Source of the DNA: Methanofollis sp. W23
Lineage (GTDB): Archaea; Halobacteriota; Methanomicrobia; Methanomicrobiales; Methanofollaceae
Direction: 5' to 3'
DNA length: 64,000 nt
Assembly: GCF_017875325.1 (NCBI RefSeq)
Contig: NZ_JAGGMN010000001.1
Location: 2,748,140 to 2,812,139, forward strand
Below, one piece after another: positions 24,447-36,889 of the stretch (position 1 is the first letter of the stretch; each line of letters begins with the position of its first letter). The notes below the pieces were generated by a model. The model did not search any database and had not been told where the DNA came from. It saw only the letters and a list, made by a program, of their open reading frames with translations. Both the position numbers and the translations under genes were made by a program.

Positions 24447-24468
24447 CCCATAGATGTACATCGGTACC

Positions 24469-25374
24469 ATGATCCCGAGACAGGACGAGGAGGGACTCTC
24501 TGAAGTGGTGGGGTTTGTCCTCCTCCTTGGTGTCCTCATGCTCGCACTCACCGTCTACCAGGCCTATGCCGTCCCCGCACAGGGACGCAGTGACGAGATC
24601 GTGCATATGAACGGGGTCAAGGACTTTTTTCTCGACTATAAACTCGCACTCGATTCGCTCTGGATAAACAACGCTGTTACCGTCCCTGTCTCCACCGCAC
24701 TTGACCTTGGGACCGGTCAGGCCACGGCACCGAACGGATGGCTTCCCTTCCTCTCGCCGACGGCATCTGCAGGATCCCTGAGCATCAGAGAGGGCGACGT
24801 CCTCGTCATCAAGACCAGCGACCACCCTCAAGGATGGGAGATCCCGCTCGGCGCCCTTGAATATTGTTCAGAGAACCGCTACTGGGTGGACCAGACCTGG
24901 ACCTACCAGATGGGGGGAGTCTTCCTCGCCCAGGATGGCGGGACGACGGTCAGGCTTGCTCCTCTCTTTGCTGTCTCTGACCTTGCCCGGACGAGTGCGT
25001 CGGTGAGCATCACCCCGGTGCATCTCAGAGGGTCCGGACTCGTCGGCGGCCCTGGACCGGTACGGCTCGAAACGCGGTTGCAGGAGATGCCAGGCGATCA
25101 GAGACCATATGGCGACCACGCCCCTGTAGCATGGGTGCGTCTCAGCATCAGAAGTGACGATCCGGAGCGCACGGTGGCCTGGACGCGGGTCCTGGGAGAG
25201 GCGCCCGCGCGAGAAGGGGTTCCTGAGGAGTGGTATCAGGTAACACACGACGGCAATGTCGCCTCTGTCTTCATCGACGGCCCCGACCATGGTGAGAACA
25301 AGGATGTCTCTCTCCATGTCCACAGGGCAGATTTCTATGCCTCCCTCCATGGGGCGGCGGCGAGGATCGAGTGA
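24469..25374 (+). CDS. Archaeal type IV pilin-like surface protein 1
   Basis: 301 residues. The N-terminus DEEGLSEVVGFVLLLGVL is a class III (prepilin) signal: a short charged leader, then a hydrophobic helix that is both the cleavage region and the filament core. The rest (about 270 residues) is an extracellular domain I cannot assign. The ATG at 24469 is preferred over an ATG at 24454 because of the TATA spacing. First gene of a three-gene run with overlapping or close joins. Confidence 0.8.
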   Translation: MIPRQDEEGLSEVVGFVLLLGVLMLALTVYQAYAVPAQGRSDEIVHMNGVKDFFLDYKLALDSLWINNAVTVPVSTALDLGTGQATAPNGWLPFLSPTASAGSLSIREGDVLVIKTSDHPQGWEIPLGALEYCSENRYWVDQTWTYQMGGVFLAQDGGTTVRLAPLFAVSDLARTSASVSITPVHLRGSGLVGGPGPVRLETRLQEMPGDQRPYGDHAPVAWVRLSIRSDDPERTVAWTRVLGEAPAREGVPEEWYQVTHDGNVASVFIDGPDHGENKDVSLHVHRADFYASLHGAAARIE

Positions 25375-26192
25375 TGGACATGAGGGGAGAAGAAGGGATC
25401 TCAGAGGTGGTCGCAAGCGTCCTGCTCATCGCTCTGAGTGTCGCCGGGGTGGCGGTCGTCGCCGCCCTCCTCTTCTCCACTCCTTCGGGGGCCGAAGTCC
25501 CGGCGGTCTCCCTCACTGCCGGGACCACTTCTGACGGTACCTTTGTCCTGGTCCACGAAGGCGGCGACCCTCTGGCGTCTGGCACCTACCACCTCTATGT
25601 GGACGCGGGGGACGGCCTCGTCGACAGGACCGATCGGTTCCTCCTTGAGGGGGACGGTGCCTGGTCGGTCGGGGAGGGATTGACCTATGCCGACAGAGAA
25701 CCGGGCGGCCGCGTCGTCGTCACTGTACTCATAGGAGAGGGTGAGACGGTGATCGCTGAGCCATGGGCCGAAGGAACCATCGCCACTGTCGTGGACGGGG
25801 GTGGAAGTACGCCTGGGCCTGGTCCGGGGCCAGGGCCGGGCCCAGAGCCCGGCACTCCAGGTATTGAGATCGAGACACCCTCTGACGGCGGCCATATGGT
25901 CTTCTCAGGGCACCCGAAGTATTCTTCGACCGTCAGGGCGAGAGCGACTGGTGAGGCGATCGAGGAGGTGGAGTTCGTCCTTGAATCTTCAGAAGGGGAG
26001 ATCTTCATCGAGGGGGTATACCCTGCAATACGGGGTGGGGACGGAGAGTTCTATGCTGATATCGTCAGCAACTATGGGCAACTCAAGAAGATGACGGGCA
26101 GGGAGGTCACTCTCGCGGTCGTCGCCTATGACCACACCGGTGCCCAAGTGGCCAGGGACCGCGTGACCGTACAGGTATGGCCGGCATACTGA
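25374..26192 (+). CDS. Archaeal type IV pilin-like surface protein 2
   Basis: About 272 residues. The prepilin signal EEGISEVVASVLLIALSV is at the N-terminus. A first extracellular domain (about residues 45-140) has HEGGDPLASGTYHLYVD, a segment shared in form with protein 3 (HDGGDPLEKGHFQILVD). A Pro-Gly spacer (PGPGPGPGPGPEPG) at about residue 150 joins a second beta-rich domain. The ATG overlaps the preceding TGA; a second ATG at 25380 is possible. Likely assembled by the same pilus machinery. Confidence 0.8.
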   Translation: MDMRGEEGISEVVASVLLIALSVAGVAVVAALLFSTPSGAEVPAVSLTAGTTSDGTFVLVHEGGDPLASGTYHLYVDAGDGLVDRTDRFLLEGDGAWSVGEGLTYADREPGGRVVVTVLIGEGETVIAEPWAEGTIATVVDGGGSTPGPGPGPGPGPEPGTPGIEIETPSDGGHMVFSGHPKYSSTVRARATGEAIEEVEFVLESSEGEIFIEGVYPAIRGGDGEFYADIVSNYGQLKKMTGREVTLAVVAYDHTGAQVARDRVTVQVWPAY

Positions 26193-26209
26193 CACGGGGA
26201 GGAGACGGA

Positions 26210-28210
26210 ATGGATAGGGATCATGAAGAGGCAGTCTCAGAAGAGATCGCTGCGGTCCTGCTCATTGCGGTCTTTGTCGCCGCTGCCGCAGTCTTCGGGC
26301 TCACCCTACTCTCCATTCACCCGGGCAGCGCCCCTCCAGCGACGCTCGTACACCTTGACGACGATGCCCTGGTCAACGGGCGCATCGTCCTCTGTCATGA
26401 TGGCGGCGACCCTCTGGAGAAGGGACACTTCCAGATCCTCGTCGACGGCAGAGACCTGACTGACGCATTCACCACTCTTGAGGGTTCTGGAGCGTGGACG
26501 ACCTGGACAAATGGAGAGATCCTGGTCCTTGGCCTCGAAAGCCGGCACAAACCGGCCGATATCAGGATTGTCGGCGACGGCGTGGGAGAGGACGGGAGCA
26601 GATGGCTCCTCCATACCCTCAGGGACGGCGGCGGCAGATCTCCGGGCCCGACGATCACTCCCCCCATGACGCCAACGATAGTGCCGACCCCCACCCCGAG
26701 CCCGTCGCCTCTCGTCGCACACTTCGCCGCGGACCTGACGACAGGCTCCGCACCTCTTACTGTCCAGTTCACCGACCTCTCCACAGGGTCGCCGACCTCC
26801 TGGTCCTGGGACTTTGGGGACGGGAAGGTCTCGACCAAGCAGCATCCCCTCCATACCTATACTGATCCTGGGATCTACACCGTCAACCTCACGGTCACGA
26901 ACTCCGGAGGGTCAGACATTCTCGCCAGGACTGGATATATCATGGTCTACCAGTGTGTCTCCCCTGGCATCACAGGAACCTATTACCCGACCATAGGCTT
27001 TACCGGCACATCGGTCCAGAGGGTCGACCGGAGGATCTGGTTTGCAGACCAAAAAGCCAACACGACCTCCTGGATCATGGCTGAAACCGACGAATATGAC
27101 TGGCCCCAGTCGATGATCGGGAAACAGGACCAGTTCAGTGTGATCTACGAGGGATACGTCATCGTGCCGACAGACGACACATACACGTTTTATCTGACTT
27201 CAGACGACGGATCGAAACTCTGGCTGGATGCAGTTACGGAGAGCGACGAACCTCTGATCGACAACTGGGACTATCACCAGGTACACGAAATGAGTGCGGC
27301 AGTCAATCTCCCTGCTGGGGCCCACCGGATCAGGACAATCATGTTTGAGAACAAAGGCGAGGCTGTATTCCATCTGGAATGGTCCTCTTCCACCTTTGAT
27401 CGGCGGCCAGTCGAATTCTTCTGTCAGGGCCTGTCCGGGATCGAGGCCAACTTCACCGTTGACCAGATCGTAGGAGAGGCCCCCCTCACTGTCCAGTTCA
27501 CCGACCTCTCCACAGGGTCGCCGACCTCCTGGTCCTGGGACTTTGGCGACGGAGAGACCTCGTCCTGGCAGAACCCGGCGCACACCTATAGCGCACCCGA
27601 CACCTATACCGTCATTCTCACGGCAAGGAACAGTGCCGGGGCCGACACTGCATCCAGGACCATCATGGTCACGGCACTGCCTGTAAAGGGAAAGGAGATC
27701 ACCCTGGTCACCTCCCCGCCCAAGGACGGCACACTTGAGGGGACATTTGCCTTCACCGTCACCGGTCCCTGGTCATACCTCCAGGTCGGTGAGGATTACC
27801 TCCCCCTCGTTCAGGGCGACCGGGTCGAACTCACCCTCATGGGAGACCAGAAGGGTATGCTCCATCTTGCGGAGGCTACCATCACCACCTTCGAGTTCCC
27901 TGACATTCAGGTCTCGGTCAACGATGAGGTTATTGGGGCGGGTGCAATCGGATCTGGCGGGATCTGGATCAGCGGGTACGAGAACCCGACCTCTACCCTC
28001 ACCCTCTCGGTCGAACCCGAGACTGCATGGACCTCTCTTCTCGTCAACGGCGAGATCGTCATTGAAGACTGGGGGGACGGACACGGCGTCGTCCTCTCCG
28101 CCCTGCTGCCAGACTCGACTGGAGTGATGAACCTCGACCTCACCGGGGTCGGCGAGGTTCAGAGAGCGGTCTTTTACCGGGGTGGGGCCGAGACCTACAC
28201 CCTTGTTTGA
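26210..28210 (+). CDS. Pilin-like surface adhesin with two PKD domains and a PA14 domain
   Basis: 666 residues. The prepilin N-terminus (EEAVSEEIAAVLLIAVFV) is followed by a domain like that of protein 2, a Pro/Thr linker, PKD domain 1 (about 185-250, with SWSWDFGDG), a PA14-like domain (about 255-410, with YTFYLTSDDGSKLWLD), PKD domain 2 (about 415-490) and a beta-rich C-terminus. PA14 and PKD modules bind sugars or mediate adhesion in other proteins. GGAGGAGACGGA precedes the ATG at 26210. Probably a large adhesin at a pilus tip or surface. Confidence 0.82.
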   Translation: MDRDHEEAVSEEIAAVLLIAVFVAAAAVFGLTLLSIHPGSAPPATLVHLDDDALVNGRIVLCHDGGDPLEKGHFQILVDGRDLTDAFTTLEGSGAWTTWTNGEILVLGLESRHKPADIRIVGDGVGEDGSRWLLHTLRDGGGRSPGPTITPPMTPTIVPTPTPSPSPLVAHFAADLTTGSAPLTVQFTDLSTGSPTSWSWDFGDGKVSTKQHPLHTYTDPGIYTVNLTVTNSGGSDILARTGYIMVYQCVSPGITGTYYPTIGFTGTSVQRVDRRIWFADQKANTTSWIMAETDEYDWPQSMIGKQDQFSVIYEGYVIVPTDDTYTFYLTSDDGSKLWLDAVTESDEPLIDNWDYHQVHEMSAAVNLPAGAHRIRTIMFENKGEAVFHLEWSSSTFDRRPVEFFCQGLSGIEANFTVDQIVGEAPLTVQFTDLSTGSPTSWSWDFGDGETSSWQNPAHTYSAPDTYTVILTARNSAGADTASRTIMVTALPVKGKEITLVTSPPKDGTLEGTFAFTVTGPWSYLQVGEDYLPLVQGDRVELTLMGDQKGMLHLAEATITTFEFPDIQVSVNDEVIGAGAIGSGGIWISGYENPTSTLTLSVEPETAWTSLLVNGEIVIEDWGDGHGVVLSALLPDSTGVMNLDLTGVGEVQRAVFYRGGAETYTLV

Positions 28211-30978: not shown

Positions 30979-31148
30979 AATTTTATAGGTCATTCTATCG
31001 AACCCTGAAATTCGTTCTTGCGTCATGGCCGATTTTCCAGAATTGGGATTTAAAAGGGACGATCTTTGAATGCACCTTGAAAAAACACCCGCCTCGCGCC
31101 CTGCAGAGAAGCAAATCCATAAGATACGAGACCTCTAAAAATGTAGGT

Positions 31149-31826
31149 ATGAATTCTTCCGTCCGGGAAGACTGTCTTGAGGCGGTCCTCACTCTGGTGC
31201 AGGAACATCAGCGCCCTGTCACCGAAAGAGAGATCGACGAGGTGGTGGAGGCGGCTTCATCGGAGGTCACGACTGCAGTCAGGGTGCTGGCCGAGGAAGG
31301 ATACCTCAGAAACGAGGACGGCGGCTATCTGCTGACCCCGCCAGGACACGATGCCGCGGAGGTGGTGTTGAGAAAGCACCGGGTACTGGAGTGTTTTCTC
31401 CATGAGATGCTCGGAATGGACGTCGGTGCTGCCTCAAAAGAAGCCTGCATCCTTGAACATGCCGTCTCAGACGAGGCCATCGACCGTCTCTCCTCATATA
31501 TCGAGGACCCGCATGGCGATCTGCCCCCGGCGCGCCGGGGACTACGGCACCGGCGCGGCCCCAGGGCCGCCGCCTGCCCGGTAGGTGCCACGCCCAATGG
31601 ACGCCGCCCTCTCCTGGACTGTTCGGAGGGAGAGACCGTGAAGGTCGCCGTAATCCAGTGCATCGGCCGGAACAGGCGGCTTATCGACCTTGGACTCATC
31701 CCCGGACGCGAGATCGCAGTCCGGCGTAAACTCCACAACAACGCCCTCGTGGTCGGGGTGATGGGCGCCGACATCGCCCTCTCTCCTGAAGTCGCATCGA
31801 CCATCTTTGTGGAGAGAACAGGATGA
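31149..31826 (+). CDS. DtxR-family metal regulator with C-terminal FeoA domain
   Basis: 225 residues. Residues about 1-65 form a winged helix (VREDCLEAVLTLVQEHQRPV, LAEEGYLRNEDGGYLLT). Residues about 66-125 are the metal-binding/dimerisation region (LRKHRVLECFLHEMLG, EACILEHAVSDEAIDRL). Residues about 150-225 are an SH3-like FeoA domain (GRNRRLIDLGLIPGREI). The Pro/Arg-rich linker between them is unusual. It overlaps feoB by 4 bp, so it probably represses its own iron-uptake operon. No separate feoA is present, so its FeoA domain might also serve FeoB. Confidence 0.85.
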   Translation: MNSSVREDCLEAVLTLVQEHQRPVTEREIDEVVEAASSEVTTAVRVLAEEGYLRNEDGGYLLTPPGHDAAEVVLRKHRVLECFLHEMLGMDVGAASKEACILEHAVSDEAIDRLSSYIEDPHGDLPPARRGLRHRRGPRAAACPVGATPNGRRPLLDCSEGETVKVAVIQCIGRNRRLIDLGLIPGREIAVRRKLHNNALVVGVMGADIALSPEVASTIFVERTG

Positions 31827-33682
31827 GGTGTGCGCTTGTCGGGAACCCGAGCGTCGGCAAATCGCTCATCTTCAACCAGCTCACCGGGCTCGGGGTTGAA
31901 GTAAGCAACTATCCAGGGACCACCGTCGAGTTGATGCAGGGGACACTCTGCTATCACCAGTCCTCGATCGAAGTCATCGACCTCCCTGGGGTCTATTCTC
32001 TGGACGGCGGTTCGGTCGAAGAAGAACTGGTCAGGACCTACCTGATGACCGAGTCCCCGGAAGTCATTGTCGCCGTCCTCGACGCGACCAGGCTTGAGCG
32101 TAACCTCTACCTCCTCCTTCAGGTGGCTGAATATGGGATCCCGACCGTCGTTGTCCTGAACATGACCGACGAAGCCGCGGCCCAGGGGATCTCCATCGAC
32201 CGCGTACGTCTTTCCACCCTCCTCGGGGGCCTGCCAGTCATCGAGACCGCTGCCACCGAAGGGAAAAATGTGGACGAGATCATCCCGGCGGTCCTGAGCG
32301 AAGCAAAGACCGCCACCCTCTCGGTCCCATACAACCCCCAGGTCGAGGCCGGGATCAGGAGCCTGGAGAAACTCTATGGAGCCTCCAGGCTCCAGGTCCT
32401 CCAGGCCCTCCAGGGGATCGGGGACGACCCTGTCCTCCTTGAAGGGGCGCAGACGATCGCAGACGAGATCGAGGCCAGAAACCATATGGCCCCCGACCAG
32501 ATCATCGCCGCAAACCGGTATCTCTGTGCCCGTCGGATCATCGAATCCGTCGTCGGCGCTCAAGAACCCGACCGACGATTCTCTCTCGACCGTCTCCTGA
32601 CGAAGGCCTTTCCAGGCATCCCGATCCTGGTGTTGGTCCTTCTTTCGATGCTGATCACGGTCTTTATCGCCGGATCGTTCCTTGAAGAACTGATCGTCGA
32701 GAATTTCAACCTCTATATCATCGATCCGTTCCTTGCCCTCGGTCTCCCTCCACTTGCGGAGACTCTCGGCCATGCCGCCCTTCTTGCGGTCGTGGCAGGG
32801 CTTGGGATCGCCTTCCCGTTCGTCTTCATCTTCTACATCCTCCTCTCGATCATCGAGGACTCAGGCTACATGACCAGGGCCGCCTTCCTTGCCGACCGGG
32901 CAATGCACCACCTTGGGCTTCACGGGGGCGCCCTCATCCCGATGGTAATGGCCTTTGGGTGCAATGTCCCTGCGGTCATGGCGGCCGGGCAGATGCGGAG
33001 CGGCCGGGAAAAGACCATCGCCGCTTTTCTTATCACGATGGTTCCCTGCTCGGCAAGGACCGTGATCATCGCCGGGATCGTCGCCGCCTTTGTAGGGATA
33101 GGTGCGGCCCTCTCAGTTTACCTCATCGTCATGGCGCTCATCCTGCTCACCGGGTATGTCCTTGCGAAGTACATCCCTGGTGGGCAGTACGGCATGATCC
33201 TCGAGATGGCCCCTCTCCGCCGTCCAGACCCGATCCTTGTGCTGCGCAAGTCGTGGGAGCGGATCAAGGAGTTCCTCTTTATCGCCATGCCTCTCCTCCT
33301 GGTCGGGAGTATCGTCCTTGGGGCGCTGGACTATTTCGGGTATGTCGGCGCCTTCTCCACGGCGGTCGCCCCCATCTCAGAAGGGGTGCTCGGTCTCCCG
33401 GCCTATGCATCCACCGCCCTCCTCTTTGGGATCCTCAGGAAGGAGATGGCTTTCGAGACGCTTGCGGTCCTGGCCGGGACGACCGACCTTGCCGCGGTGA
33501 TGACCTCTGTGCAGCTCTACACCTTTGCCGTGATCAGCGTCCTCTTCGTTCCCTGCATCTCCACCATCGCCGTCCTCCTCAAACAGGTGGGGACCAAGAT
33601 CACACTTGCAGTGTCGGCATACACGATCATGCTTGGATTTTTTATCGGTGCGATCATACATCTGATCACAGGTTTGGTCTGA
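31823..33682 (+). CDS. feoB: Ferrous iron transport protein B
   Basis: Fe(II) permease of the membrane with an N-terminal G domain. 619 residues, slightly short for FeoB. G-domain motifs: GNPSVGKSLIFNQLTG, NYPGTTVE, DLPGVYSL and NMTDEA. About eight membrane segments follow from residue ~260, with SGYMTRAAFL and GCNVPAVMA gate-type motifs and GILRKEMAFE. It is downstream of the DtxR-FeoA gene and one base upstream of the KaiC-like pair. Confidence 0.95.
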   Translation: MRCALVGNPSVGKSLIFNQLTGLGVEVSNYPGTTVELMQGTLCYHQSSIEVIDLPGVYSLDGGSVEEELVRTYLMTESPEVIVAVLDATRLERNLYLLLQVAEYGIPTVVVLNMTDEAAAQGISIDRVRLSTLLGGLPVIETAATEGKNVDEIIPAVLSEAKTATLSVPYNPQVEAGIRSLEKLYGASRLQVLQALQGIGDDPVLLEGAQTIADEIEARNHMAPDQIIAANRYLCARRIIESVVGAQEPDRRFSLDRLLTKAFPGIPILVLVLLSMLITVFIAGSFLEELIVENFNLYIIDPFLALGLPPLAETLGHAALLAVVAGLGIAFPFVFIFYILLSIIEDSGYMTRAAFLADRAMHHLGLHGGALIPMVMAFGCNVPAVMAAGQMRSGREKTIAAFLITMVPCSARTVIIAGIVAAFVGIGAALSVYLIVMALILLTGYVLAKYIPGGQYGMILEMAPLRRPDPILVLRKSWERIKEFLFIAMPLLLVGSIVLGALDYFGYVGAFSTAVAPISEGVLGLPAYASTALLFGILRKEMAFETLAVLAGTTDLAAVMTSVQLYTFAVISVLFVPCISTIAVLLKQVGTKITLAVSAYTIMLGFFIGAIIHLITGLV

Positions 33683-33683
33683 G

Positions 33684-34397
33684 ATGGATCCGTTCAAGAC
33701 TGGCATTAGGGCGATCGACGAGACCGCAGGAGGGATCCCCCCGGCCTCCAACCTGCTCCTTCTCGCCCCTCCCTTTACAGGCGCCGATCGCCTGGCATAT
33801 CAACTGACTCATCCAGGGAAAAATGACTATACCATCGTAATTTCGGCAGACGGCGATGCTCTGGATGTGAAAGATTCATTTGGACTCTCAAGAGAAGATA
33901 GCCACCGTCTCTGGGTCGTCGACTGTATCACCAGGACGATGGAGCCCACGGCCACCGACAGCGACCAGGTGAAGTACGTGGCAAGTCCGGTGGACCTGAC
34001 CGGGATGGGGATCAAGGTCACCAGGATCCTGGAAGAGATCAAGGAGATCGAAGCGGCGGCGGGGACCGGGGAAGTGCCGCGGGTGCGGATCTGTGTCAAC
34101 TCTCTCTCGAGTTTTCTCATCTATTCGAAACTTGAGGCGATCTACCGGTTTTTCCATATCCTCTCGGCCAGGGTGAGGCGGATGAACGGGGTCGCGGTCT
34201 ATCTGCTCAACCCCGCGGCAGTCGATGAGAAGACCATCTCGACCATTGAGCAGTTGATGAACGGGGTCATCAGGATCTCTGAGGAAGACGGCGGCGATGG
34301 GGTCAGAACGCTGGACCTCAGGACAAAAGGGGGTGTCGTAGTCAGGGATGTCCGCTACCGCATCTTGGGGAATGCACTTGTGGTGATTGAAGCATGA
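33684..34397 (+). CDS. KaiC/RadA-like protein with degenerate Walker A
   Basis: 237 residues of RecA/KaiC-like layout (TGIRAIDETAGGIPPASNLLL at the start is split here by my reading into the ID and GGIP landmarks). Where a P-loop GxxxxGKT should stand the sequence is APPFTGADRLA, with no GKT, so ATP hydrolysis is doubtful. A Walker B-like stretch is RVRICVNSLSSFLIY. It starts one base after feoB and overlaps the next gene by 4 bp. Probably a regulatory or scaffold partner of that KaiC-GTPase fusion. Confidence 0.72.
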   Translation: MDPFKTGIRAIDETAGGIPPASNLLLLAPPFTGADRLAYQLTHPGKNDYTIVISADGDALDVKDSFGLSREDSHRLWVVDCITRTMEPTATDSDQVKYVASPVDLTGMGIKVTRILEEIKEIEAAAGTGEVPRVRICVNSLSSFLIYSKLEAIYRFFHILSARVRRMNGVAVYLLNPAAVDEKTISTIEQLMNGVIRISEEDGGDGVRTLDLRTKGGVVVRDVRYRILGNALVVIEA

Positions 34398-35569
34398 TCA
34401 GGACAGGCATTCTGGCCTTTGATAGGATGATCGGCGGCGGGGTTCCTGAGGGGAAGAGCGCCCTCTTTTCCCTTGGCATGGGGGTGGAAGGACAACAGTT
34501 CATGTTCAGCACCCTCAGGTGCGCAAGGGTGCAGGGGCACCGTTGCTTGGTCGTGATCCCCTATGCCACCGGGCCCGCATTCCTTTCCGGGACCAGGGGA
34601 ACCCCATACGAGATCAGGGGGGGAGAGGGGTTGTACTTCCTGGACTCTCACGTCTTCGAGGAGATCGATGCCCTCCGTACGGCGACTCCTGAGAGTGAGG
34701 CCAGGGCATGGGAAGAGCGGATCGATATGGTGCTGCAAGAGTATTCCATTGATGCGGTCTTCCTGTACCCGAACCGTCTCTGTGATACCCTCGGAACGGC
34801 CCGGACACTCAGGCTCTTTGCCGACCTCTGTGCCATGCGAAAGGTGACGCTCTTTGTGGAGTATCTCAACCTGTATAATGCCTGTCATCTCAGGGACATG
34901 CTGGATGCGGTGCCCTTCGACCTGGTGGTGACCGCTGGCGAGGGGTTTGGGGGCCATATGTTCCTGAGCACTTTCAGGGTGGAGGAGGTCTCGTGGAGAG
35001 ACGTCCCACCCCGCCCCCTCCCTTTTGTGGTCCATGGGGACGGGCGCCTGGTTCCGCAGATCCCGAAGATCGTCGTGACCGGTCCGGTGGATGCTGGGAA
35101 GACCACTTTCATCAGGACGGTCTCGAAGCGGTGGGTCTCCTCTGAACGGGAGGGAGTTTCAAGTACGCCGACGACGGTTGCGATGGACTTTGGAAACCCT
35201 GCAGTGACATGTAGCGGTTTTGAGGTCAATCTCTTCGGCACCCCAGGACAGGAGCACTTCGGGCCGATCATCAGGCACCTGCTTACCAACGCCACCGGGG
35301 TCGTCTTCATGGTGGACGGGTCGGGAGACGGGGATCTAGAGGGGGCGCGCGGGATGCTGGCGCCTGTGCTGGCCCTCGGTGCTCCCTTTGTCGTGGGCGT
35401 AAATGTAAAAGACCTCCCCCTGAGGACCGACGACGGAGAGGTGCGTGAGGTGCTCGGTGTGCCTGAAGAAACGCCGGTCATCTCGTTCTCGGCACAGCGG
35501 CTCGACGAGGCGACGGCCGTGGTCGACGCCCTCGTGGAATTGATCGTCCGCGGAAAATCTATGGAGTGA
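34394..35569 (+). CDS. KaiC-like/GTPase fusion protein
   Basis: 391 residues in two parts. Residues 1-215 are KaiC-like ([18 protein letters not shown]) but the P-loop position reads [11 protein letters not shown], without GKT. Residues 225-391 are a small GTPase: P-loop GPVDAGKTT at 230-238, switch [11 protein letters not shown] at 281-289, and VNVKD in place of NKxD. These G motifs resemble the SRP-receptor-beta/MglA-like bacterial and archaeal GTPases (COG2229 type). Fusion to a KaiC-like pseudo-ATPase suggests signalling or positional control; no function is assigned. Confidence 0.72.
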
Positions 35570-35576
35570 AGACGTA

Positions 35577-36326
35577 ATGCTGACATTTATTGGGCTTGGT
35601 CTCTTTGATGAGCATGATGTGTCGGTCAAGGGGCTGGAGCAGATCCGGCGGGCCGACTATGTATTTCTTGAATCATATACCTCGGTCCTGACCGGGACGA
35701 CCCTTGAGAGGATGGAGGACCTCTTTGGGAAGAAGATACAGACGCTGGCCAGGGACGATGTCGAGGGCCATCCTGAAGATTTTCTCAGGCTTGCGCTCGA
35801 CACAGATGTTGCCTTCCTTACGGCGGGCGACCCCATGGTCTCGACGACACATATCGATCTGCGGATCAGGGCCGAAAGGATGGGGGTCAGGACTTCGATT
35901 GTCCATGGGGCTTCGATCGTGAGTGCGGTCTGTGGGCTTACCGGGCTGCAGAACTATCGTTTCGGGAAGTCGTGCTCTTTGCCGTTCCCCTATGGGAAAT
36001 GGGCGCCCAAGACCCCGATCGAGGTGATCGAGCAGAACATGGCCGAGAACCTCCACACACTCGTCTATCTTGACATCCAGCCTGAGCGGTATATGCGAGT
36101 CCCTGAAGCGGTGGTGCTCCTCGAGGAAATGGCTGCCGAACGCGGTCTTTCAATCCCCCTCTATGTGGGGGTGGCTAGGGCGGGTTCGCCCGCGCCGGTG
36201 GTCGCGGCCGGGAATGCGGCCGACCTGGCTGGAGTGGACTTCGGCGGTCCGCTTCATATCCTTGTCGTTCCGGCAGCACTCCATCTTATGGAACAGGAAT
36301 ATCTCAAGACCTTTGCTGGCCTATGA
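35577..36326 (+). CDS. dphB: Diphthine synthase
   Basis: SAM-dependent methyltransferase of diphthamide synthesis on elongation factor 2. 249 residues, family-typical. [49 protein letters not shown] and the C-terminal [19 protein letters not shown] are diagnostic of tetrapyrrole-methylase-fold Dph5. It overlaps the DUF357 gene by 4 bp. Confidence 0.95.
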
Positions 36327-36889
36327 GTTCGTCGTTGCACGATGCCCTTGACGCCGACCTTTCTGTGGTTTCTCCTGCCCCTCCAGAGGGGTCGGCTCAT
36401 GCGAGAGTCTGCGCCTGTGTTCTCAGGATGGTCTCCTCATATCTCTCTGACGGGACAGTCTTTGCGGGCAGGGGCGACCTGGTCAATGCCCATGCCAGTT
36501 TTGCCTATGCATATGGGTGGCTGGACGCCGGTGCCCATCTTGGGCTGTACCATGGGCGGACGGTGCCCATGGACTATGACTTTGTCACCTCGACCGGTCC
36601 CGACCTCCGTGCCCATCTTGAGGAGAAGACTGCACGCTATGAACACCTCCTTGTCGAGGCGACCGGTTCGGTCTCCCCGGCCCCCGATTCAGAGACCCCG
36701 ATGTACAGAGCAGCCTGTGAGGTCGCCGATACTGGCGGAGTTGCCCTGGCACGGGGACAAGGGTGTGCAGGGGACGGACGGTTGGAAGAAGCACTTGGCT
36801 GGTATTCGTACGGGTACGGGTGGCTTGATGCCGGGGTGCAGGCTGGTCTTTTTGTAATCCTGGGGCGAAGAGATATCTTTACCGTATGA
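36323..36889 (+). CDS. DUF357 family protein, duplicated domain
   Basis: 188 residues with two copies of the DUF357 helical hairpin; each ends in a YGWLDAG motif ([15 protein letters not shown] and [16 protein letters not shown]). In archaea this family is often found next to dph5, as here. No catalytic residues are recognisable, so a structural or partner role is more likely than an enzyme. Confidence 0.82.

Follow-up and report, generated by a model that had tools for sequence, protein, structure and literature searches.

What could two KaiC-like proteins that both lack a usable nucleotide-binding loop do together, when one of them is fused to a small GTPase? The question is raised by two neighbouring genes of Methanofollis sp. 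W23 (order Methanomicrobiales), which lie in a 64,000-nucleotide stretch of DNA that we analysed and call the window. P1 (33684..34397) encodes a KaiC-like pseudo-ATPase of 237 amino acids that belongs to Pfam DUF7504. P2 (34394..35569) encodes 391 amino acids and joins a KaiC-like pseudo-ATPase to an MglA-type GTPase. As an earlier note on this DNA had reported, the stop codon of P1 and the start codon of P2 overlap by 4 bp (ATGA, 34394..34397), an arrangement common to most relatives in Methanomicrobiales. P2 consists of an N-terminal KaiC-like domain, here called P2N (residues 1-217; 34394..35044) and recognized by profile comparison with KaiC structures, and a GTPase domain (residues 218-391; 35045..35566) recognized by the Pfam families Arf and GTP_EFTU. 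These genes, and the other features of the locus given below, are on the forward strand.

The pair lies within an operon. Upstream are genes for a DtxR/FeoA-type regulator (31077..31826) and for FeoB (31823..33682), both recognized by Pfam, NCBIfam and synteny in the order, and FeoB is separated from P1 by 1 bp. The gene for the diphthine synthase Dph5 (35577..36326; NCBIfam dph5, 7e-85) begins after a gap of 7 bp downstream of P2 and is followed by a DUF357 gene (36323..36889), which is found 3′ of P1 or P1-P2 across the order. A promoter scan yielded no signal above chance; the consensus used was that of bacterial sigma-70, not an archaeal one. Elsewhere in the window (24454-28210), three successive ORFs start with a sequence that resembles the N-terminus of archaeal type IV pilins (EEGISEVVASVLLIALSVAG and similar), and the third of these runs on into PKD-like repeats.

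The KaiC kinship of both proteins is supported by sequence and by predicted fold. P1 scores well within DUF7504 (9e-30; 104.9 bits, with a gathering cut-off of 27) and matches DUF7090 at 2e-12. A broad profile of the P1 family matches KaiC structures at 5e-17. The window's P2N taken alone reaches an E-value of 0.13 with Pfam KaiC, a family that 29 of 32 P2N relatives match (best 4.3e-24), and the P2N family profile matches KaiC structures at 2e-27. Because the single P2N of the window is too divergent for Pfam, family profiles are needed to see the relationship. The profiles of P1 and P2N also match each other (hhalign, 99.2%). Structure prediction, which the earlier note had proposed, agrees with its assignment: the single-chain AlphaFold2 model of P1 (pLDDT 92) has PH0321, the archaeal RecA-like ATPase PH0284 and KaiC as its nearest folds, and that of full P2 (pLDDT 88) matches KaiC in a fold search. 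Taken together, these results assign P1 and P2N to the KaiC family, within the RecA superfamily. We rejected an identity as Elp4 (PAXNEB), for which P1 scores 28.9 bits (cut-off 28) and 3 of 32 P2N relatives match; we read these matches as the common RecA fold.

Neither KaiC-like domain has the Walker A motif GxxxxGK[ST] of the KaiC family. Alignment places the degenerate sequence APPFTGAD at this position in P1 (residues 28-35; 33765..33788) and LGMGVEGQ in P2N (residues 27-34; 34472..34495). Since the motif is absent, we file both as inactivated KaiC-like proteins and not as KaiC ATPases. The earlier note's claim that both are KaiC-like proteins without GKT in the P-loop is thus upheld, and it extends to relatives: none of the 81 P1 sequences of Methanomicrobiales and none of the 131 P2N sequences overall has the lysine, counts in which some sequences come from a genome sampled twice.

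The two losses have different histories. P2N has a fixed PGVEGxVF-type motif at the Walker A place in other lineages and, with no lysine in any sequence, is a pseudo-ATPase throughout the lineages seen. In P1, the lysine is lost only in Methanomicrobiales. Outside the order, nearly all P1 sequences keep GK, and nine of ten sequences from Archaeoglobaceae have a full GxxxxGKS. Because the motif is intact in Archaeoglobaceae, we propose that P1 was ancestrally nucleotide-binding and that this ability was lost in Methanomicrobiales. By the motif states, the description as two pseudo-ATPases holds for Methanomicrobiales, but elsewhere the pair consists of one possible ATP binder and one dead subunit. 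Nature thus provides a series in which the P-loop of one ATPase subunit disappears stepwise and its partner is dead from the outset, a clean case for asking what role a pseudo-ATPase has within a complex. In Halobacteria-type genomes (L162-L166, L170-L173, L177-L179), P1 has a GPPxxGKR-type Walker A and occurs without P2, and the next gene is mostly CoA-binding-like.

The degenerate domains do not evolve as if released from constraint. Comparison with close relatives gives a dN/dS of 0.14-0.16 for P1, 0.16-0.18 for P2N and 0.12-0.24 for the GTPase domain. These rates indicate that both are real genes with purifying selection on every domain and, given values of about 0.12-0.24, that the pseudo-ATPase parts are kept by selection.

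The GTPase half of P2 can be placed more precisely than the earlier note's Ras-like label. It scores above the Pfam cut-offs for both Arf and GTP_EFTU, and a profile search matches MglA (3t12) at 5e-17, ranked among Rab/Arf matches. The G1 motif GPVDAGKTT (residues 230-238; 35081..35107) and the sequence FGTPGQEHF (residues 281-289) are where the note had seen them. In all 131 P2 relatives, G1 is intact as GxxxxGK[ST]. The G3 motif GTPGQ (residues 282-286; 35237..35251), which lacks the Asp of Ras, Arf and Rup, is shared by 123 of the 131. GTPGQ is a common signature of MglA groups 2-5, and group 4 is nearly confined to methanogenic Euryarchaeota (Wuichet and Sogaard-Andersen, PMC4316618). Accordingly worded, the note's label stands as far as a GTPase with an intact G1 is concerned, but the signature, together with a linked roadblock gene in most other archaea (see below), marks the domain by sequence as MglA-type and not as generic Ras. 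Its G3 without the conserved Asp follows the rule of the MglA family. Its size does not: family members are single domains of about 160-240 amino acids, and P2 has 391 with its KaiC-like half.

The note had also pointed to VNVKD in place of NKxD. This sequence is present (residues 336-340, so that G4 is NVKD, residues 337-340; 35402..35413), but only the window's P2 has it: the motif reads NMKD and NRKD in two sister genomes and is a normal NKxD in most of the 131 relatives. Because the G4 lysine is often missing in MglA groups 2 and 3, and CvnD9 is nevertheless an active GTPase (PMC4316618), NVKD is no argument against activity. In genus g12 (L082, L083, L084), erosion affects both G3 (GIPGG/GIPGQ) and G4 (NTKR, NRKH, NRKQ) while G1 is intact, and these motifs mark a pseudo-GTPase branch within the P2 family.

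Two other GTPase families were rejected. In Rup proteins, G3 has the conserved Asp known from eukaryotic Ras/Arf, and P2 has G at this position. For ArvA-type vesiculation GTPases, the partner genes differ: DUF2073 (ArvB) is not beside P2, whose neighbours are P1, Dph5, DUF357 and FeoB.

P1 and P2 occur together far beyond the window. Full-length P2 is present in 37 of 150 Methanomicrobiales genomes, and all 37 have P1. At every locus of the order that was read, namely the window's and 36 others, P1 lies directly upstream of P2, and the gene order is DtxR/FeoA-FeoB-P1-P2-Dph5-DUF357-flippase-nuclease or a variant of it. Among named genomes that were scanned, the fusion was located within the order in Methanoregula, Methanolinea and Methanocalculus, and outside it in Methanoperedens, ANME-2, Alkanophaga, Methanocellales, Archaeoglobaceae, Thermoplasmata, Altiarchaeota and DPANN contigs. 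P1 adjoins P2 in ANME-2, Methanoperedens, Methanocellales and Archaeoglobaceae, and follows P2 in Thermoplasmata, where the gene order is reversed. P1 is thus next to P2 in most lineages with the fusion, but is not clearly present in a few (Alkanophaga, Nanoarchaeia, Micrarchaeota and others). In a draw of 345 genomes from the phylum, full-length P2 occurred in 61 and P1 in 59 of those. This orthologue survey, another check proposed in the earlier note, bears out the co-occurrence of the two genes. From its distribution, the pair looks like a signalling unit of long standing in archaea, not like an isolated curiosity. A role in anti-phage defence was rejected, as PADLOC gave no match.

P1 is the more widespread of the two, with 176 occurrences in the same draw. 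It is found without P2 in one family of the order (f4), in most Methanosarcinaceae sampled and in Halobacteria. Some Methanomicrobiales, notably family f4, have P1 alone before Dph5, and Dph5 and DUF357 follow P1 or P1-P2 even where FeoB was not found beside P1. As P1 lacks P2 in so many lineages, it must have some P2-independent role or another partner. The earlier note held that orthologues with normal P-loops and no partner gene would refute its reading. Half of this occurs, namely P1 with a near-normal P-loop and without P2, yet nearly every genome with P2 has P1. In one f4 genome (G028, locus L067), P1 is broken by an internal stop and P2 is also absent.

A third component emerges outside the order. 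Of 69 loci from other lineages, 62 have a Roadblock/LC7 (MglB-like) gene no more than 500 bp from P2, compared with 0 of 25 loci of Methanomicrobiales, in a set that includes some contigs twice. The P2-linked proteins have 120-137 amino acids and exceed the Pfam Roadblock/LC7 cut-off; their profile matches a solved roadblock protein at 1e-23, CvnB5 at 1.6e-12 and MglB at 3e-4. In six Methanosarcinaceae-type loci with MoaB-like/YhbY-like flanks, P2 and the roadblock gene are both absent, and four relatives with the same flanks have both. The six genomes have no P2 elsewhere, and we read the joint absence as the loss of one block. In Archaeoglobaceae, a V4R-domain gene lies 3′ of P1-P2-MglB (L168:8630-9229, L174:4228-4848, L228:2382-2978). 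V4R is structurally related to TRAPPC3, and GTPase, roadblock and V4R folds thus occur together in a single operon.

The roadblock genes of the window's genome are unlinked to P2. One of them, which we call type-a (C1:1670810-1671190), overlaps a gene for a REC-MetOD2 response regulator, and the two form an operon (C1:1670810-1671828; L292:6811-7829). The same pair is present in all 15 further loci checked (L320-L334), with or without P2. Type-a genes occur in all 37 P2 genomes of the order and also in genomes of the order without P2, always with a response regulator in the cases read. A role as a P2-specific gene was rejected, given that type-a is spread over most of the order and paired with the regulator also where P2 is missing. 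A short roadblock tree does not place type-a with the P2-linked MglB genes. MetOD2 is a domain of Methanocellales and Methanomicrobiales whose role is unknown (PMC5847659), and type-a is a candidate partner for this orphan output domain. A second roadblock system in the window's genome (L293:5886-6950) consists of two roadblock-domain genes in tandem; such systems are common across the order, irrespective of P2.

The best available sign of contact between P1 and P2N is that they evolve in step. Across 36 loci of the order, their tree distances correlate at 0.93 (partial correlation 0.85 given Dph5), compared with 0.06 for P1 and its operon neighbour DUF357 as a control and 0.61 for P2N and its own fused GTPase. 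In 55 loci outside the order, the partial correlation of P1 and P2N is 0.75 given GTPase and roadblock distances, and that of P1 and the GTPase is -0.08. All these figures rest on non-independent distances and carry no significance test. Because P1 covaries with P2N far more than with the controls, we infer that P1 binds P2N in a P1:P2N complex. With adjacency, co-occurrence and rate covariation, the earlier note's idea of a pseudo-ATPase pair tied to a GTPase is borne out to the extent that these parts form one evolutionary unit; the qualification is that P1 is not dead in all lineages.

On balance, P1 and P2 probably belong to a single signalling complex, an MglA-type GTPase switch on a KaiC-like scaffold that is aided by a roadblock/MglB protein. 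P1 and P2N would assemble together through their RecA/KaiC folds. In Methanomicrobiales, this part has no usable P-loop and so would not be ATP-driven; it may serve as a platform for sensing or docking, from which the fused GTPase is held back, positioned or set free. The GTPase would bind GTP via its intact G1, and a Roadblock/MglB-type protein may help it to hydrolyse GTP, i.e., act as a GAP. In most other archaea, the gene for this putative GAP adjoins P2. For the window's genome, the protein would most likely come from the unlinked operon of type-a roadblock and REC-MetOD2, and the switch may thereby receive response-regulator input. Against this reading stand the lack of a linked roadblock gene in Methanomicrobiales, the type-a operon in genomes without P2, its position in the short tree, and the many lineages with P1 alone. 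By analogy with MglA, the signalling or polarity role suggested in the earlier note is reasonable, and roles in motility or at membranes may be considered.

A different division of labour seems unlikely: in Methanomicrobiales, the P1:P2N platform might replace MglB, with a KaiC-like subunit contacting the switch regions as GAP or exchange factor. This would account for the lack of a roadblock gene near P1-P2 at every Methanomicrobiales locus, and the strong coupling of P1 and P2N suits it. However, every P2 genome of the order has type-a elsewhere, and the coupling is also strong where a roadblock gene is linked.

We regard it as quite improbable that the KaiC-like part binds ATP or another nucleotide non-canonically and couples the adenine-nucleotide state to the GTPase, as is supposed for KaiC-family hubs. 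The GK of P1 in most other lineages and the full motif in Archaeoglobaceae are consistent with such a site. KaiC-type catalysis requires the Walker A lysine, however, and this residue is absent from every P1 sequence of the order and every P2N sequence.

It is very unlikely that P1-P2 serves the pathway of its own operon, whether iron uptake (Feo) or diphthamide and translation (Dph5). The order DtxR-FeoB-P1-(P2)-Dph5-DUF357 is indeed conserved across Methanomicrobiales, but FeoB is absent from the stretch read at five loci of the order (L064, L087, L102, L104, L105), and outside the order these neighbours are gone while P1-P2-MglB persists. We therefore rejected a core role through FeoB or Dph5. 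Finally, a decaying relic whose pseudo-ATPases are heading for loss is hardly credible: the eroded GTPases of genus g12 and the absence of P2 from many genera would fit it, but dN/dS is low over all domains in the window's own lineage, and P2N is retained without a P-loop in every lineage.

The signalling complex that we favour matters in two respects. A three-gene unit of P1, P2 and MglB is kept from Archaeoglobus to ANME methanotrophs and Thermoplasmata, which offers concrete partners and a testable complex for archaeal MglA-type GTPases, to which the survey cited above (PMC4316618) assigned no pathway. The unit also unites two main proposed archaeal signalling hubs, KaiC-like proteins and roadblock-controlled GTPases. 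A bolder and doubtful extension is that a KaiC-type pseudo-ATPase assembly is the built-in MglA regulator of an ancient archaeal membrane or polarity switch, made of the KaiC pair, MglA and MglB, with a V4R/TRAPPC3-like protein in Archaeoglobaceae. This design would be one not described in bacteria or eukaryotes, with parts related to eukaryotic TRAPP/Ragulator folds.

How does this unit compare with known systems? P1 belongs by score to DUF7504/DUF7090, both Pfam families without assigned function, and a literature search for DUF7504 found no paper. P1 and P2N share fold and sequence family with KaiC, ArlH and the KaiC-like PH0284, but they have a single KaiC domain without the Walker A lysine, and in P2 the GTPase takes the second position. 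Inactivated KaiC-like proteins (iKaiC) were proposed as archaeal signalling hubs by Makarova, Galperin and Koonin in 2017, as cited in PMC5847659. To judge by that citation, they likewise combine a KaiC-family domain without a working P-loop with signalling domains; what sets P1/P2 apart is the partnership with an MglA-type GTPase and MglB. We found no description of the unit of KaiC pair, MglA and MglB in the literature searched, although the 2017 paper may already list the fusion.

ArvA of Haloferax (PMC10927574) is likewise an archaeal small GTPase with conserved partner genes. However, its partners are DUF2073 and DUF2072, and it is free-standing, with no KaiC-like part described. The closest likeness is to the MglA/MglB module (groups 2-5, including the CvnD/CvnB conservons and archaeal group 4), with which P2 shares GTPGQ without Asp, an intact G1 and a profile match to MglA structures; a Roadblock/LC7 gene adjoins the P2-type GTPase in most archaea outside Methanomicrobiales. 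The survey of that family covered mainly GTPases of at most 240 amino acids and reported no conserved neighbours for group 4 mglA (PMC4316618). P2 differs in that its GTPase is the C-terminal half behind a KaiC-like pseudo-ATPase, and in that a second KaiC-like protein is encoded alongside. The earlier note's switch of a new kind is therefore new in its combination of inactivated KaiC hubs with MglA/MglB, but known GTPase/GAP logic applies to it, and the P1-P2 unit resembles an MglA/MglB switch built from KaiC parts.
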